From assembly GCF_026210795.1 (NCBI RefSeq), contig NC_089449.1, positions 806,001 through 870,000 on the forward strand: a stretch of 64,000 nucleotides of DNA. The letters run 5' to 3'. This stretch comes from Rhizophagus irregularis (Eukaryota > Glomeromycota > Glomeromycetes > Glomerales > Glomeraceae). Below are positions 6,562 to 46,367 of the stretch, piece after piece (positions within the stretch are counted from its first letter, which is position 1; every line of letters starts with the position of its first letter). A program made the translations under genes and the position numbers. The notes under the pieces were generated by a model. It saw only the letters and a program-made list of their open reading frames with translations, had not been told where the DNA came from and searched no databases.

Positions 6562-7062
6562 ATGTCTAGTGAAAAGTTCTTGAGACATCAACTCATTTCT
6601 TACTCAAGGGAAAAGAAAAATAAGTCATATCGCAGTTTTCTCCTTCATTACAGAAAAGAAATCAGCGAATATTCTTTGTATACCTCAGTAATGTCTTGGA
6701 GAGATCTCGACAATACCTGGTCCCAGTTCTTGTTGTTAGAGACCAAGAGGTTGTTAAATGAAAACAACTTTGATACATTAGAATATAAGGTGCGTCTTTT
6801 TGTTTTGCAATGAGAGGGTAACTCCTGGTCGAGTCCATCGTGTCGTTGCTCAGGAGAATTACTGTGCTGGGATTGCTGGTAACCACCCCAGCTTGCACTG
6901 TACAGGCGTCCTCATATTGTCGTTGATAAAAGTCTATTAATCTTGGATGAGAGATTGGTCATGTACCTTCTTTTATCACTAAATAAGATAGCGCATTCTG
7001 CTAATATTAGCTTCCTTTATTAGGTTAGAATAGAACGACGTATGGTCGAAATTGCTTTTTAG
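6562..7062 (+). CDS. Short paralogue of the bromodomain-nuclease gene's N-terminus (88 aa)
   Basis: Exons 6562..6789 and 7024..7062 give 88 residues. The first exon aligns with the start of the gene at 44504: KSYRSFLLHYRKEI against KSYWGFLNSYRDTI, and WRDLDNTW against WINLDNHW. In both genes the intron follows a Lys codon, and the next exon begins V-x-x-E-R. After exon 2 a TAG stops the frame, but the same frame goes on WRVIEKLIYKLI, similar to WQEIIKEF in the larger gene, so the copy is probably a nonsense-truncated relative. No domain is recognisable. The 234-bp intron carries a conserved RNA fold (see the ncRNA entry). Confidence 0.55.
6790..7023 (+). ncRNA. Conserved structured RNA inside an intron (copy A)
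   Basis: The whole GT-AG intron aligns with intron 2 of the gene at 44504. Helices: P1 CAATGAGAGG (6808-6817) with CCTCATATTG (6910-6919), carrying one wobble and one mismatch; P2 CTCCTG (6822-6827) with CAGGAG (6851-6856); P3 GCTGGG with CCCAGC at about 6866-6892; P4 ATTAATCT (6936-6943) with AGATTGGT (6952-6959), closing the 8-base loop TGGATGAG. Unpaired stretches GGGTAAC, GAATTACTG, CAGG-GTCCT and ATGTACCTTCTTTTATC are shared with the other copy while helix bases change in pairs. The class is not one I recognise; it is not a tRNA or a TPP riboswitch. Confidence 0.6.
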
Positions 7063-13406: not shown

Positions 13407-14463
13407 TAAAGTTGCCTGCCAAAACTCTACAAGCTATTGTCGAAATGTCGAAACTAAAACCTGTAGAAATGCCGAAATGCCGAAATAGTTTCGACATGTC
13501 AAAATTGTCGAAACCTAAAAATATTACGTTTCACGTAATAACTCGGCGTCCAATGATCGTAGAAAAATGCACCATAGCTCGTTGGAATCGTCTCATAACG
13601 ACGAGTCAAATGGTGGTTAGATCGTCGTCTTTCTACGATCACTGGATGCCGAGATATTGAGCGAAACGTCAAAAATCGGCATTTTGTATTTTGCGATACT
13701 GCGCCATTTGACGTTTCACTTAATAACTCGGCATCCAATGATCGTGGAAAGATGCACCATAGATCGTTGGATTCGTCTCATAACGATGAGTCGAATGGTG
13801 GTTAAATCATCTTTCTACGATCATTGGATGCCGAGATAATAGACGAAACGTCAAACGGCGCAGTAGCGCAAAATACAAAATGCCGATTTTTGACGTTTCG
13901 CTCAATATCTCGGCATCCAGTGATCGTAGAAAGACGACGATCTAACCACCATTTGACTCGTCGTTATGAGACGATTCCAACGAGCTATGGTGCATCTTTC
14001 TACGATCATTGGATGCCAAGTTATTAAGTGAAACGTCAAATGGCGCAGTATCGCAAAATACAAAATGCCGATTTTTGACGTTTCGCTCAATATCTCGGCA
14101 TCCAGTGATCGTAGAAAGACGATCTAACCACCATTCGACTCGTCGTTATGAGACGATTCCAACGAGCTATGGTGCATCTTTCTACGATCATTGGATGCCG
14201 AGTTATTAAGTGAAACGTCAAATGGCGCAGTATCGCAAAATACAAAATGCCGATTTTTGACGTTTCGCTTAATATCTCGGCATCCAGTGATCGTAGAAAG
14301 ACGATCTAACCACCATTCGACTCGTCGTTATGAGACGATTCCAACGAGCTATGGTGCATCTTTCTATGATCATTGGACGCCGAGTTATTACGTGAAATGT
14401 AATATTTTTAGGTTTTGACAATTTTGCCATGCCGAAACTCCCTAATTTCGGCAGGGAACTTTA
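13407..14463. mobile_element. Fold-back DNA element with internal 180-bp repeats (8-bp TSD ATTATAAC)
   Basis: 1057 bp. The ends are inverted: TAAAGTTGCCTGCC at the left against TAAAGTTCCCTGCC read from the right. Perfect 8-bp repeats ATTATAAC flank it at 13399-13406 and 14464-14471. Inside, a unit of about 182-187 bp, marked by CTACGATCATTGGATGCC, recurs in tandem in one direction on the right and in the opposite direction on the left, so the whole folds into a long hairpin; each unit is itself partly palindromic. It is clearly richer in GC than its surroundings. No transposase is encoded. The open stretches of 60-82 codons here are by-products of the repeats. Confidence 0.85.
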
Positions 14464-33530: not shown

Positions 33531-36500
33531 TTAATCTTCAATTGCACAATCAAGACCTTGAGTCTCTTCTTGAATTAAAATTTCAGTAAGTTTGCGACTT
33601 GTATAATATGCTTGTAAATGAGATTGTATAGCAGAGGTATTTGCTTGTTCTTGCATTAAAGCTTTGTCTGCTTCTACAAATTCTAACATATCATTTATTA
33701 ATTGATTATCAAAATTAGATACTTCATAGACATAATTTCCATCCCTGTTTATTCTATAATATTCACTAATACACCTATTCCATTCAGATAAAATATTTTC
33801 AAGCATTATTACGGTTGGTCTATTAGAAGGATCTGAATCCCAACATTTTTCCATTAAATCTATATAACATTTTGGAGCATTTTTTATAATTTCAGGACGT
33901 CTCCCTTGACAAATACCTAGGCTAAGGTGATAATCATGTGCTTCACGATTAAATGGAGGGGTACCTGATATAAATTCCCACATTATTATTGAAAAACTAT
34001 AAATATCACTTGCTGGTGTATAAGGTTTTTTTCTTAATATTTCAGGCGCCATATAAGGTAAAACTCCATAAATTTCATTAACAGAATCTTGTAAATCACT
34101 TATAGGTTTGCATAATCCTAAATCAATAATAAATAACTCATTGTAATCATCTGACATTAAAATGTTACCATCATGAAAATCACCATGAGTTAAATTTGAT
34201 TCATGAATTACTTTAAGTCCTAGTATAATTTTTTTCAATAATTGTAACTTGTGTTGCCACTTAAATTTAATTATATCAGATAAACATTTTCTCAAACTTC
34301 CTTTTTTTGCATAACTCATTATAATTATATAATTTAAATTATTTGGATCTTGGGTAAATCCAAAGAATTGGATAAATTTTGAAAATGATTTTTTCTGACA
34401 ATTATAATAATATTTCCACTATATAAATTATAAAAAAAATGTTAAACATTTGCATAAAAAAATAAAATTGCTACTAAATATAAATAATATACCTCATCCA
34501 GAAATTTACTATCTAAGTTTGATGAACTATTAAGTGTTTTAAGAATAACCTCATAACCTGCTTGAAAATTACATCTATTCCATTGTTGTTTGTTAAAGCT
34601 CCAATTATAAATAGGTCCATCTAACCAGATAGCTTTATGAATTTCACTAAATCCTCCTTTATCATAATAATTGATTTCTGACAATTTATTATAAGGTATC
34701 CACTCTAAAAATTCATAACTATTTTTAGCATTTAATTGTGCCTCTTGAATAAATTTATCAACAAATTCATTTTTACTAGTCCATTTAGAAAAATCTTGTT
34801 GAAATCGTTTAGTATTACATTGCTGGCACCACTTGTAATCAATGTATGGTTGCTTGCATTCATTACATTCTAATCTAACTTCATTTTCTGCTGCTTTTTG
34901 ATACCAATAAAATGCTTTCTCTAAATTCTTTTCTGTTCCTTCTCCATTTTCATAACATGTGAATAAATTAATCATTGCATCTTTATTATCATTTTTTGCT
35001 GCTTTTTGATACCATTGAAAAGCTTTTTCTAAATTCTTTTCTATTCCTTCTCCATTATAATACAAATTGGCTAAATCATTCATTGCAATTTCTTCACCAT
35101 TTACTGCTGCTTTTTGATACCAATGAAAAGCTTTTTCTAAATTTTTTTCTGTTCCTTCTCCATTATAATACCCATTTGCTAAATTAAACATTGCACTAGT
35201 ATAACCATTTTCTGCTGCTTTTTGATACCATTGAAAAGCTTTTTCTAAATTCTTTTCTGTTCCTTCTCCATTATAATACCCATTGGCTAAATTAAACATT
35301 GAACTAATATAACCATTTTCTGCAGCTTTTTGATACCAATAAAAGGCTTTTTCTAAATTCTTTTCTGTTCCTTCTCCATTATAATACCTATTAGCTAAAT
35401 TAAACATTGCACCTGTATAACCATTTTCTGCCGCTTTGTGATACAAATGAAAGGCTTTTTCTAAATTCTTTTCTGTTCCTTCTCCATTTTTATAATGTAT
35501 GGCTAAATTAAACATTGCACCAGTATGACCATTTTCTGCTGCTTTTTGATGCCAATAAAAAGCTTTTTCTAATTTTTTTTCTATTCCTTCTCCATTTTTA
35601 TAATGTATGGCTAAATTAAACATTGCATCAGTATGACCATTTTCTGCTGCTTCTTGATACCAAAAAAAAGCTTCTTTTAAATTCTTTTCTGTTCCTTCTC
35701 CATTATGATACCTATTGGCTAAATTAAACATTGCATCAGTATAACCATTTTCTGCTACTTTTTGATACAAACGAAAAGCTTTTTCTAAATTCCTTTCTGT
35801 TCCCTCTCCATTTTCATAATATACGGCTAAATTAAACATTGCACCAGTATGACCATTTTCGGCTGCTTCTTGATACCAATAAAAAGCTTTTTCTAAATTC
35901 TTTTCTGTTTCTTCTCCATTATGATACCTATTGGCTAAATTAAACATTGCATCAGTATGACCATCTTCTGCTGCTTTTTGATACCAATAAAAGGCTTCTT
36001 CTAAATTCTTTTCTGTTCCTTCTCCATTTTCATAATGTATGGCTAAATTAAACATTGCACCAGCATGACCATTTTCTGCTGCTTCTTGATACCAATAAAA
36101 AGCTTTTTCTAAATACTTTTCTGTTCCCTCTCCATTTTCATAATGTATGGCTAAATTAAACATTGCGCCAGTATGATCACTTTTTGCTGCCTCTTGATAC
36201 CAATAAAAAGCTTTTTCTAAATTCTTTTCTGTTCCCTCTCCATTTTCATAATGTATGGCTAAATTAAACATTGCACCAGTATGACCATTTTTTGCTGCTT
36301 CTTGATACCAATAAAAAGCTTTTTCTAAATTCTTTTCTGTGCCTTCTCCATTATAATACTTATTGGCTAAATTATTCATTGCAATTTCTTCACCATTTTC
36401 TGCTGCCTTTTGATACCAATAAAAAGCCTTTTCTAAATTTTTTTCTGTTACTTCTCCATTTTCATAATGTATAGCTAAATTATTCATTGCACCAGTATGA

Positions 36501-38245
36501 CCATTTTCTGCTACTTTTTGATACCAATGAAAGGCCTTTTTTAAATTCTTTTCTATTCCTTTTCCATTATAATACCCATAGGCTAAATTAAACATTGCAT
36601 TTACTTCACCATTTTCTGCTGCTTTTTGATACCAATAAAAGGCTTTTTCTAAATTCTTTTCAGTTTCTTCTCCATTTTCATAACGTATGGCTAAATTGAA
36701 CATTGCACCAGTATGACCATTTTCTGCTGCTTCTTGATACCAATAAAATGCTTTTTCTAAATTCTTTTCTGTTCCTTCTCCATTAATATACCCATTGGCT
36801 AAATTATTCATTGCAATTTCTTCACCATTTTCTGCAGCTTTTTGATACCAATGAAAGGCTTTTTCGAAATTTTTTTCTGTTTCTACTCCATTTTCATAAT
36901 GCATAGCTAAATTATTCATTGCACCAGTATGACCATTTTCTGCTACTTTTTGATACCAATGAAAAGCTTTTTCTAAATTCTTTTCTGTTCCCTTTCCGTT
37001 ATAATACCCATAGGCTAAATTAAACATTGCATTTTCTTCACCATTTTCTGCTGCTTTTTGATACCAATAAAAAGCTTTTTCTAAATTCTTTTCTATTCCT
37101 TCTCCATTATAATACAAATCGGCTAAATTATTCATTGCAATTTCTTCACCATTTACTGCTGCTTTTTGATACCAATGAAAAGCTTTTTCTAAATTTTTTT
37201 CTGTTCCTTCTCCATTATAATACCCATTGGCTAAATTAAACATTGCACCAGTATGACCATTTTCTGCTGCTTTTTGATACAAATGAAAAGCTTTTTTTAA
37301 ACTCTTTTCTATTCCTTTTCCATTATAATACCCATAGGCTAAATTAAACATTGCATTTTCTTCACCATTTTCTACTGCTTTTTGAAACCAATGAAAGGCT
37401 TTTTCTAAATTCTTTTTTGTTCCTTCTCCATTTTCATAATTTATAGCTAAATTATTCATTGCACCAGTATGACCATTTTCTGCTGCTTTTTGATACCAAT
37501 GAAAAGCCTTTTCTAAATTCTTTTCTATTCCTTCTCCATTATAATACCCATTGGCTAAATTAAACATTGCATTTTCTTCACCATTTACTGCTGCTTTTTG
37601 GTACCAATGAAAAGCTTTTTTTAAATTTTTCTCTGTTCCTTCTCCATTATAATATCTATTGGCTAAATTATTCATTGCACCAGTATAATCATTTTCTGCT
37701 GCTTTTTGATACCAATGAAAGGCTTTTTCTAAATTCTTTTCTGTTCCTTCTCCGTTAAAATACCCATTTGCTAAATTAAACATTGCACCAGAATAACCAT
37801 TTTCTGCTGCCTTTTGATACCAATAAAAAGCCTTTTCTAAATTCTTTTCCGTTCCTTCCCCATTTTCATAATGTATAGCTAATTTAAACATTGCACCGGT
37901 ATGACCATTTTCTGCCGCTTTTTGATACCAATGAAAAGCTTTATCTAAATTTTTTTCTGTTCCTTCTCCAATATAATACCCATTGATTAAATTAAACATT
38001 GCACCAGTATGACCATTTTCTGACGCTTCTTTATACCAATGAAGGACTATTTCTATATCCTTTTCTGTTTCTTCTCCATTATAATACATATTGGCCAAAT
38101 AAAACATTGCTTCTTCATCATCATTTTCTGCTAGTTTTTCTAAAGAGTTAATACAACTTTTACACCATAATTCCTTAGTAAAAGGTTTATTGCAATATAA
38201 ACAATTTTTACTGCTTACTGTATTAGTTGTATCAGTAGTTTTCAT
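33531..38245 (-). CDS. Sel1-repeat protein kinase (1546 aa)
   Basis: Two exons on the minus strand, 38245..34493 and 34418..33531, with a 74-bp GT-AG intron, join in frame to 1546 residues. Residues 15-31 hold a small zinc-ribbon-like C-x2-C...C-x2-C. Thirty near-identical 36-residue Sel1 repeats follow (about 44-1123; consensus GEGTEKNLEKAFHWYQKAAE). A second C-x2-C...C-x2-C cluster comes next (CNEC, CQQC), then a kinase at about 1175-1450: glycine loop GGFSEI, lysine in EVILK, catalytic loop HGDFHDGNIL, DLG in place of DFG, and MAPE. The intron lies in the kinase N-lobe after LDE and resumes WKYYYNC. Key catalytic residues are kept, so it should be active. Sel1 repeats act as scaffolds. This architecture is greatly expanded in Rhizophagus; substrates are unknown. 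Confidence 0.93.
34892..38117 (-). repeat. 108-bp tandem coding repeats (30 Sel1 units)
   Basis: The 30 units are nearly uniform at 108 bp with few indels. Sub-types alternate (NAMFNLAYGYYNGKG, GAMFNLAIHYENGEG and IAMNNLANGY forms), so blocks of several units were probably copied together. Open stretches on the opposite strand are shadows of this array. Confidence 0.85.
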
Positions 38246-44503: not shown

Positions 44504-46367
44504 ATGAATACATACAAAAACTATCCTGGCAAAAGTGGTAAGTCTTATTATGAATTTGTATTTGATTTGCAATATTATCAACTAATCAAATCTTTCAATC
44601 TTTCTAGCCATTATTTCTTATTTAACAGAAAATAACAATAAAACAACAAATAACAATAAAACAACAAAATCATATTGGGGATTCTTAAACAGTTATCGTG
44701 ATACTATTATTATTTCAACTATTTCAACTACTTCAATTTCATTAAAAAAGTGGATTAATCTTGATAATCATTGGGCTGGCTGTTTTTTGCATGAAGGAAA
44801 AGATATTCCTGGTTTAAAAGATAAGGTGTGTTTTTTTTTTATTTTGCAAAGTAGGGTAACCCCTAAGCGATCCAATGGCTTGTTCTTAGGGGAATTACTG
44901 GGTTCGACAACCTTGGTTTCAAGTTTCTCAATTCAGGTGTCCTACTTTGTTGTTGATATAAGTCTGCTAATTCTGGAGGAGGAATTGGCTATGTACCTTC
45001 TTTTATCCTAAATAAAATTTTAGCACACTATTAACAACCTCTTTGTTATAACAGGTAAACACAGAACGGTCACGTTATGCAAAAACATTAAAATTATTTT
45101 GGCAAGAAATTATCAAGGAATTTAAAGAAAAAGAAAATATAGTGCTTGCTGATTCATCTCATTCACAAAAAAACATTGAAATTCCTGCTAATTCAATTCC
45201 TATTAATTCAATTCCTATTAAAAATTTTCACAAAAACATTAATATTAATGATTTCTGTCATGATATTCTTCAAGAACTTGATAATAAGTCTAATATTCAT
45301 CCATTCTATAAATATGATGAACATGAAATTTCAAAAATCATTAAAAATCCAATGGATTTATTTACCATAAATTCAAAATTAGAAAATAATCAATATACTA
45401 GTACAGAAGAATTTGAAAATGATATTCGTCTTATATTTCGTAACTGTTATACATATAATAAATTAGGAAGTGAAATGTATACTTTGGGTGAAGCATTGGA
45501 ATCAGCTTTTAATAAGATATGGATTGAAAAAATAATTTTTCAAGTCAATAAAAAAGAAAAATTAAAAAGAGCACGAGATAATGATACTGATTTATCTTCT
45601 GGTAAACTATAATATTTTCTTTACTTTTCCTGTATTTATAGTATATTATTTATTAACTCTTTATAATTATTTATTATTTATTAGAACTTGTAATAAAACA
45701 AATTCGAATTTTGGAACAAAATAAAGATAATTTGGTATATAGACAAGTTGTGAATGATGCCCTTCTTATTGCTTCAGCATATGAAAATCTTATTGCAGAT
45801 AATATTGTACCTTTTATTGAAATTTTAAAAACATTTTTGTCAACAAGATCACAAATATCACTATCTTCTGCAAATGAGCCTGTTCTTCAGGCAATTGTTG
45901 AAAATCTTTTGCCATCAAAATATTATATTCCTGAATTATCATTAGTAATGGATGGTACAAAATCAAAAGGATTTGGTCGATTTGGATATTCAGATATTTT
46001 CATTTTAAAAGGAATAGGAAATAATAATATTAGTTTAGAATTAAAATACATTTCATTAGTTGGGTTAATAAAAAATCAAAAAAAGAGGTTTAATACAAAT
46101 GATTTGGAAAATTTAGATAAAATTATTGAAAAAGAAGATGAAAAAGTTTTACTAAAAAGATCATATACATATTGGTCAAAAGAACATAATGAAACTAAAC
46201 AAATAACCTTAGAAGAGATATTAAATAATGGAGTTAATCAATTAAAATCATATATGAATATTATTTTAAAAGGGAAATCAATTGATTATTATAGTTCAGG
46301 AATATTTGATAAAAGAATTAAAATAACTGAATCAAATCCTAATAAATTAAAAGGATTATATTGGTAA
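44504..46367 (+). CDS. Bromodomain fused to a PD-(D/E)XK nuclease-like domain (493 aa)
   Basis: Exons 44504..44537, 44608..44825, 45055..45601 and 45685..46367 join in frame to 493 residues. Residues about 151-240 are a bromodomain: KNPMDLFTINSKLEN, then FRNCYTYN with the acetyl-lysine-binding Asn at about 219. Residues about 330-455 match the PD-(D/E)XK fold: GYSDIF (Asp370), LELKY (Glu385, Lys387), and a helix GVNQLKSYM with Gln451. Bromodomains read acetylated histones; this nuclease fold includes restriction and repair enzymes. A nuclear, chromatin-directed enzyme is inferred. The frame stops at 46365-46367, but another frame continues VIGFRRILWRSVEEMVSDY to about 46437, so the true C-terminus may be longer and one base may be lost. 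Intron 2 holds the conserved RNA fold. Confidence 0.8.
44826..45054 (+). ncRNA. Conserved structured RNA inside an intron (copy B)
   Basis: Intron 2 of the bromodomain-nuclease gene. Helices: P1 CAAAGTAGG (44847-44855) with CCTACTTTG (44941-44949), nine pairs; P2 CCCCTAAG (44860-44867) with CTTAGGGG (44885-44892), eight pairs; small hairpins GGTT-CGAC-AACC (44901-44912) and CTTG-GTTT-CAAG (about 44912-44923); P4 GCTAATTC (44966-44973) with GAATTGGC (44982-44989) around the loop TGGAGGAG. Compared with copy A at 6790, P1, P2 and P4 change bases on both sides so as to keep pairing, while GGGTAAC, GGAATTACTG and ATGTACCTTCTTTTATC stay fixed. The known class is not identified. Confidence 0.62.

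Follow-up and report, generated by a model that had tools for sequence, protein, structure and literature searches.

Fungal type III introns with a thiamin pyrophosphate (TPP) riboswitch have a blocked first donor and a second donor, with a stop codon between the two (PMC5882874), and in the autoregulated RPL7B intron of Saccharomyces cerevisiae a conserved intron fold is exclusive with a stem that joins the donor and the branch point (PMC12311795). The nonconventional introns of euglenids have non-GT-AG borders, and their positions +4 to +6 pair with positions -8 to -6, with compensatory changes (PMC4770533). In the present study, we analyzed a 64,000-nucleotide stretch of the genome of Rhizophagus irregularis (contig NC_089449.1, positions 806,001 to 870,000; hereafter the window), which contains an intron at 44826-45054 (plus strand) in a gene of a large paralogous family. 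The results show that this intron is a full-length folded RNA and that its fold is under selection. The fold probably controls the splicing of these genes, a role suggested by the position of the helix P0, which pairs the 5' splice site with the flank of the branch site.

The intron resembles the TPP type III introns in being internal, in its structured core, in a stop codon that separates its main donor from the alternative ones, and in a pairing that may hide or show the donor; it differs in that no TPP aptamer was matched, the partner of the donor is the flank of the branch site rather than an arm of an aptamer, and no link with thiamin is apparent (PMC5882874). With the zipper stems of S. 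cerevisiae and the RPL7B intron it shares a helix that joins donor and branch site, a second conserved internal fold and a weak splice signal, whereas here the helix includes the donor itself and touches the branch site, and dozens of paralogues have kept both the sequence and the fold (PMC12350175, PMC12311795). On the features tested, the intron fails membership in both of these kinds, with zipper stems as defined in PMC12350175. The initial annotation of this DNA had stated that no named class fits, and indeed the window gave no match to Rfam at the gathering threshold; at E ≤ 5, the window intron and seven relatives gave only matches far below gathering, and the TPP aptamer was matched in neither search. 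A phage search with the intron found nothing, as expected, and no report of this intron was found among the papers listed in literature searches naming Rhizophagus, with subscription papers mostly outside their scope. Fish introns with AC/GU repeats, which reportedly bypass U2AF2 (Lin et al. 2016, as cited in PMC9024468), also pair a GU-rich start with an AC-rich stretch near the 3' end; they differ from the present intron, which has a short defined helix and a complex conserved core but no long repeats.

Copies of the intron were sought throughout the R. irregularis genome (146.7 Mb in 32 contigs). BLAST with each of the two window introns, the one above and a second copy at 6790-7023 (plus strand), scored at least 42 and at least 40 matches (258 and 63 candidates), and the pattern CTATGTACCTTCTTTTATC occurred 92 times with up to two mismatches, as against five times for the reversed control. 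A covariance model built from 38 intron copies gave 93 matches at E ≤ 1e-12 at 85 loci; it matched none of the three that were compared with it among nine identical off-pattern hits. Two of 70 loci were dropped for lack of the anchor motif, as were 11 of 32 matches of one search, which were too partial for extraction, and one without a 3' end. Absent from the 93-match scan are four of the 26 exon-selected copies described below (L099, L102, L105 and L106) as well as L071, L076, L082-L086, L088, L095 and L097. All copies with readable exons (61 copies outside the tandem arrays described below, a few with 3' ends misplaced by the parser) stand at a single position of a bromodomain-containing gene family, in phase 0 between an exon ending in ..LDNxWxxHFLxEAKxL..IKxK and an exon starting with (V/I)NxERxRYxKxLQxFWQxIIKE. 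In the window, the GT...AG intron at 44826-45054 (R1 core match at 44842-45013, 161 bits) separates the codons ..LKDK and VNTER.. in phase 0, and the downstream exon (45055-45609, plus strand) codes for a bromodomain (Pfam PF00439, E 5.8e-20); the frame of the exon following the copy at 6790-7023 meets a stop after 12 codons. One family locus, L060, has a Crinkler N-terminal domain (PF20147, E 5.2e-23) instead of the bromodomain.

For a sample independent of the intron, we used exon 1 as the query (87 and 57 hits) and took 35 homologues new to the intron searches, leaving out about ten weak or duplicate hits. A model match lay directly after exon 1 in 26 of the 35 (14/15 and 12/20), one of which (L114) has no recognizable donor. 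The nine exceptions comprise a weak match (L126, E 0.0057), a visible intron remnant with no model match (L117), one homologue that was not classed (L129), four distant family members (L108, L119, L120 and L122) with a different, strongly folded intron at the same site that contains a doubled CTCC..GGAG-type hairpin module, and two paralogues (L130 and L131) without the fold, whose introns at the same site are short (about 119 and 82 nt) and unstructured, with GTATGT as the donor in one and GTGYGT in neither.

From the outside to the inside, the fold consists of P0, its AT-rich extension P0b, and two domains, in one of which P1 encloses P2 and P3 and in the other P5 encloses P4. In the window copy (all on the plus strand), P0 pairs the 5' splice site GTGTGTT (44826-44832) with AGCACAC (45022-45028), which directly precedes TATTAAC (45029-45035), a putative branch site (family consensus TACTAAY). 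The strands of P0b, TTTTATTT (44837-44844) and AAATAAAA (45010-45017, from the predicted fold), are nearly invariant and hence show little covariation. P1 joins CAAAGTAGG (44847-44855) to CCTACTTTG (44941-44949), and P2 joins CCCCTAAG (44860-44867) to CTTAGGGG (44885-44892) around a loop whose length differs among copies, both helices being based on covariation tests. The P3 arm (44898-44936) has an outer CTG/CAG helix (44898-44900 with 44934-44936) and an inner CTTG/CAAG helix (44912-44915 with 44920-44923). P5 pairs GATATAAG (44955-44962) with CTTTTATC (45000-45007), with one U-U mismatch in this copy, and encloses the P4 hairpin GCTAATTC-TGGAGGAG-GAATTGGC (44966-44989); both were found by covariation tests and in the predicted fold. 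P0, P3 and P5 had been missing from the initial annotation, which had also taken GGGTAAC, GAATTACTG and ATGTACCTTCTTTTATC to be fixed unpaired blocks. GGGTAAC (44854-44860, at the P1/P2 junction, resembling a cryptic 5' splice site AGG|GTAAC) and GAATTACTG (44892-44900, between P2 and P3) are conserved as claimed, but all three blocks are partly paired: the first GG of GGGTAAC belongs to P1 and its C to P2, the first base of GAATTACTG is the last of P2 and its final CTG belongs to P3, and positions 45000-45007, the last eight of ATGTACCTTCTTTTATC, form the 3' strand of P5, one of the best-covarying helices. In three loci (L111, L118 and L106), a single intron contains the P1-P3 domain a second time, in part, or more than that.

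The minimum-energy fold of the intron 44826-45054 contained all helices from P0 to P5 (z -3.08). Among 52 introns folded, the mean z was -3.4 and 87% were below -2, with a mean probability of 0.75 for P4 and 0.70 for P0; the donor bases were unpaired 6% of the time and the branch site 61%. The alignment of the two window introns spans their full length, and the paired exchanges between them that had first pointed to a conserved fold are present in the sequences, namely T44852-A44944 for G6814-C6913 in P1, C44861-G44891 for T6823-A6855 and A44865-T44887 for G6827-C6851 in P2, and the paired changes of P4 around its TGGAKGAG loop.

Over the many further copies, the helices were kept far more often than they were broken, so that the proposal passed the check set for it in the initial annotation. 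In the 93-copy alignment, 92.3% of 3460 cells were paired, compared with 39-52% when the partners were slid; double-changed cells numbered 248 against 62.4±6.0 in shuffles, and 32 of 39 pairs had changed on both sides against 19.4±2.1. For example, P5 pairs exchange A-U, U-A, C-G and G-C, and the second pair of P2 is U-A in 59 copies and C-G in 27. Because this alignment was fitted to the model, which favors the model in the slid and shuffle controls and in the tree null alike, we also simulated evolution on a tree while preserving the rate of each column (200 simulations for 39 sequences of less than 85% identity, array copies excluded). The double-changed cells again exceeded chance (116 against 27±7), as did the paired cells (92% against 78±2%); P1, P2, P4 and P5 were each significant, and P3 was weaker. 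Together, the slid, shuffle and tree-null tests support the initial annotation's proposal of a selected RNA fold.

Scans that did not presuppose the model gave more limited signals. A test of single-pair covariation over all column pairs with strict correction had little power, and only one P2 pair stood out, at E about 0.1. When all possible four-pair helices were scanned in 45 sequences, an artefact consisting only of GU pairs between the donor and columns 132-135 scored highest (P 0.01; 0.04 in a second register), followed by P0 (0.12), P1 (0.15) and P2 (0.45); in 55 sequences, P2 (0.03), P1 (0.06) and P4 (0.07) led, with an off-model helix and P0 next at 0.16 each. In a wider set aligned by sequence only, from which array copies were excluded, P4 was the sole helix above all 200 null maxima; an extension of P1 (E 0.135), the inner helix of P3 (E 0.475) and off-model helices at E 0.13 and 0.475 came next. 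P2 and P5 were not recovered at E ≤ 1 in this last scan, we think owing to gaps misplaced by the sequence-only alignment.

The intron is also more conserved than its surroundings. Over 39 coding copies (741 pairs), the intron core differed by 22%, exon 1 by 37%, exon 2 by 36% and the third positions of exon 2 by 47%; among the copies chosen by exon 1 (210 pairs from 21 of the 22 rows; 17 rows for exon 2), the core differed by 26.5%, exon 1 by 39.9% and exon 2 by 34.1%. For 19 genes (171 pairs), the fold-bearing intron differed by 16.5% and the next intron of the same genes by 32.2%. It is very unusual for an intron to evolve more slowly than its flanking exons and than another intron of the same genes. 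In Rhizophagus clarus, the protein P0071 keeps LLIKSANSGGGIGY, which corresponds to P5 and P4 read through, suggesting that the element is older than the split between R. irregularis and R. clarus.

The helix that bears most directly on function is P0, which starts at the first intron base and, in copies forming it, ends 0-3 nt from the branch-site motif; its 3' partner lies about 20-30 nt inside the intron end. At least five of the first six intron bases were paired in 69 of 72 introns when small register shifts were permitted and in 64 of 72 without them; among the exon-selected copies (22 aligned, 18 parsed), the corresponding counts were 18/18 and 16/18. The donor varies (GTGTGT, GTGCGT, GTGCAT, GTGAGT, GTATGT) and the partner follows it, for example as CACAC, CGCAC, ATGCAC, TTCAC or CATAC, in combinations such as GTGTG/CACAC, GTGCG/CGCAC, GTGCAT/ATGCAC and GTATG/CATAC. 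The 44 distinct pairs of ends were better matched than every one of 20000 permutations. When partners were swapped among 71 introns (11 of 82 rows were not parsed for P0), the Watson-Crick pairs fell from 4.66 to 4.23±0.08 of six, and random places within the same introns reached five of six pairs in 6.4%. On the tree null (39 sequences, array copies excluded), the paired cells of P0 had p=0.0025 and the double-changed cells p=0.015.

The bases of P0 are those that U1 and U6 must read, so that folding and donor recognition are mutually exclusive. In S. cerevisiae, stems this near to the donor and the branch point have been judged unable to form within the A complex (PMC12350175), which argues for a gate more than a bridge. 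Judging from the sequence, we suggest with somewhat less than even confidence that the fold is a cis-acting gate on the splicing of its own gene, in which P0 hides the donor. In the closed state, P0 would keep the non-consensus GTGYGT donor from U1 and U6 and hold it against the branch site. P0 could be opened by a helicase, by the binding of a protein or by a small molecule that the conserved core (the TGGAGGAG loop, GGGTAAC and GAATTACTG) reads, upon which the whole intron would be removed and the protein made; if P0 were kept closed, the intron would be retained or a donor in the core used (AGG|GTAAC, or TTG|GTAACC in the P3 loop), often leaving a broken message. One such gate would be common to the whole paralogue family. 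That the two paralogues without the fold also lack a GTGYGT donor counts for this reading. Of the three roles offered by the initial annotation, splicing control is the one favored by P0, in which the 5' splice site pairs and covaries with the flank of the branch site. It is more doubtful whether the intron represents a eukaryotic RNA switch of a new class, which apart from the TPP riboswitch would be the first known from fungi. In that case a shared intronic sensor would have spread by gene duplication through a whole gene family, and its single helix would keep the 5' splice site locked to the branch site until the binding of a metabolite or protein, one signal thereby setting the splicing of dozens of genes.

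The splice signals indicate what a closed gate might produce. GT-AG ends and a TACTAAY-like branch-site motif were found family-wide. Retention of the whole intron introduces a stop codon in 60 of 61 copies and a stop or frameshift in all 61, and single-base deletions occur in P5; a coding role of the intron was rejected on these grounds. The inner loop of P3 contains a donor-like GGTAACC-type motif in 49 of 61 copies, the use of which would give a stop or frameshift in 45 of the 49. Complementarity to the 5' end of U1 was 6.88 of 9 for the GGGTAAC site, 6.95 for the real donor and 5.96 for the P3-loop site. In three annotated proteins (P0003, P0004 and P0051), manual comparison with the introns of L063 and L123 places the start of the intron at the P3-loop donor TTG|GTAACC, which adds intron-coded residues to the protein, whether through alternative splicing or mis-annotation; the start is 29 residues downstream in P0003. 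Under a length rule applied to 120 of 215 annotated protein hits, 74 join cleanly, four keep part of P1/P2, four keep part of P4, three have a long joint and 35 are unclassified. Annotators should note that some public models of this family begin the intron at the other donor.

Several observations weigh against the gate. The alternative donors of P0003, P0004 and P0051 may be errors of the gene predictor; in 22 of 49 copies, use of the GGGTAAC donor would still give an open frame in the right phase; and the window copy at 44826-45054 has lost the P3-loop donor. The probability of P0 is near zero in some copies (L037, L064 and L092, among 18 of 52 listed). Folded alone, the copy at 6790-7023 (z -2.07) is predicted to form P0, P0b and P3, with P1 and P2 in the centroid only, and other hairpins replace P4 and P5 in both the minimum-energy and the centroid structure, although the sequence can form both. 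The main puzzle is the retention of the fold in copies with broken frames: of the 59 copies that were classified, 22 have a broken and 37 an open frame next to the intron, and the fold is kept equally well in both groups (0.911 and 0.910 paired). Further copies, amounting to 11 rows of the 93-match scan, form tandem arrays without a reading frame, in which the intron and a short exon-end remnant repeat in units of about 300 bp (L080:1511-2896, minus strand; L079:1306-2321; L081; L088). Retention of the fold in broken-frame and array copies is not predicted by selection through the host protein alone.

An unlikely but reasonable alternative is that the fold is a constitutive aid to splicing, which compacts the intron, brings donor and branch site together and offsets the non-consensus donor without any switching, in the manner of a zipper-stem enhancer. 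Fungal zipper stems are common and sometimes required where a signal is weak, as in RPL7B, whose branch site is UGCUAAC and which needs its zipper stem (PMC12311795, PMC12350175); a TGCTAAY branch site, as in RPL7B, occurs in some of the introns here. Against such an aid, P0 contains the donor bases 1-6 themselves and adjoins the branch site, and compaction leaves unexplained why the loops are fixed and why conservation of the core extends beyond the helices; in most yeast zipper stems, sequence conservation is only 20-30% (PMC12350175).

We consider it improbable that the intron, whole or in part, persists after excision as a stable non-coding RNA that has a task of its own, with the gene mainly as its carrier. 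In favor of this idea, besides the equal retention of the fold beside broken frames and its persistence in the arrays, the introns of disrupted copies differ by 19.9% and their exons by 41-50%; these copies, like those in the comparison of fold retention, were found by intron similarity, and the values share that selection bias. On the other hand, no small nucleolar RNA (snoRNA), small nuclear RNA, tRNA or other Rfam family was found at threshold; for snoRNAs, the search of the intron gave only two C/D matches, which scored 23 bits where the thresholds are 90 and 60, with box motifs not searched separately. The covariation at the splice site binds the fold to the intron ends, and the array copies, which keep P5, P0 and the splice signals, have the P4 loop changed from TGGAGGAG to TCAATAAA.

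A mobile or non-spliceosomal intron, either introner-like or removed through the pairing of its ends, is very improbable. The terminal complementarity and the high copy number recall the euglenid nonconventional and intermediate introns, whose end pairing is likewise kept by compensatory changes (PMC4770533), and the Hypoxylon sister stwintrons and introners, which are many similar fungal introns with pairable ends (PMC9024468). The present intron differs from the former in its GT-AG borders, branch-site motif, conserved core and single position, with a 3' partner inside the intron and not at its end, and from the latter in that theirs occur at many positions, whereas ours was found at a single site in a single gene family (61 copies and the exon-selected ones read); a mobile element was rejected on the absence of copies at other positions. 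Most copies have a group II-like GUGYG start, with GTATG, GTGCA and GTGAG also occurring. Group II introns begin with 5' GUGYG, and Rfam includes models of group I and group II introns. Neither was matched in the Rfam searches of the window, the window intron and seven relatives; given this, the GT-AG ends and the TACTAAY-like branch site, the remnant of a self-splicing domain that the initial annotation had entertained finds no support. Finally, that recent duplication and gene conversion produced apparent covariation through shared ancestry, with no function, is hardly credible even though the family is amplified and single-pair covariation is weak under strict correction, as the tree null and slid controls were clearly exceeded and conversion would not spare this intron alone while both exons and another intron of the same genes diverged further.

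Elsewhere in the window, about 30 copies of a 108-bp direct repeat lie at 34774-38205 in a 1267-residue open frame on the minus strand (Sel1-like by eye), and nested inverted repeats of up to 234 nt with 94% complementarity lie at 13487-14439. A single family accounts for nine open frames that carry Y(D/N)GNIHP(N/D)EW close to their start and are spread along the plus strand at 526, 8664, 15042, 17194, 18981, 47265, 49991, 53180 and 54681.

The approximately 90 natural copies with paired changes, together with the fold-less paralogues, provide a test set for the effect of RNA structure at the 5' splice site. If the intron is a switch, it would offer one handle on a large, expanded gene family of an arbuscular mycorrhizal fungus.
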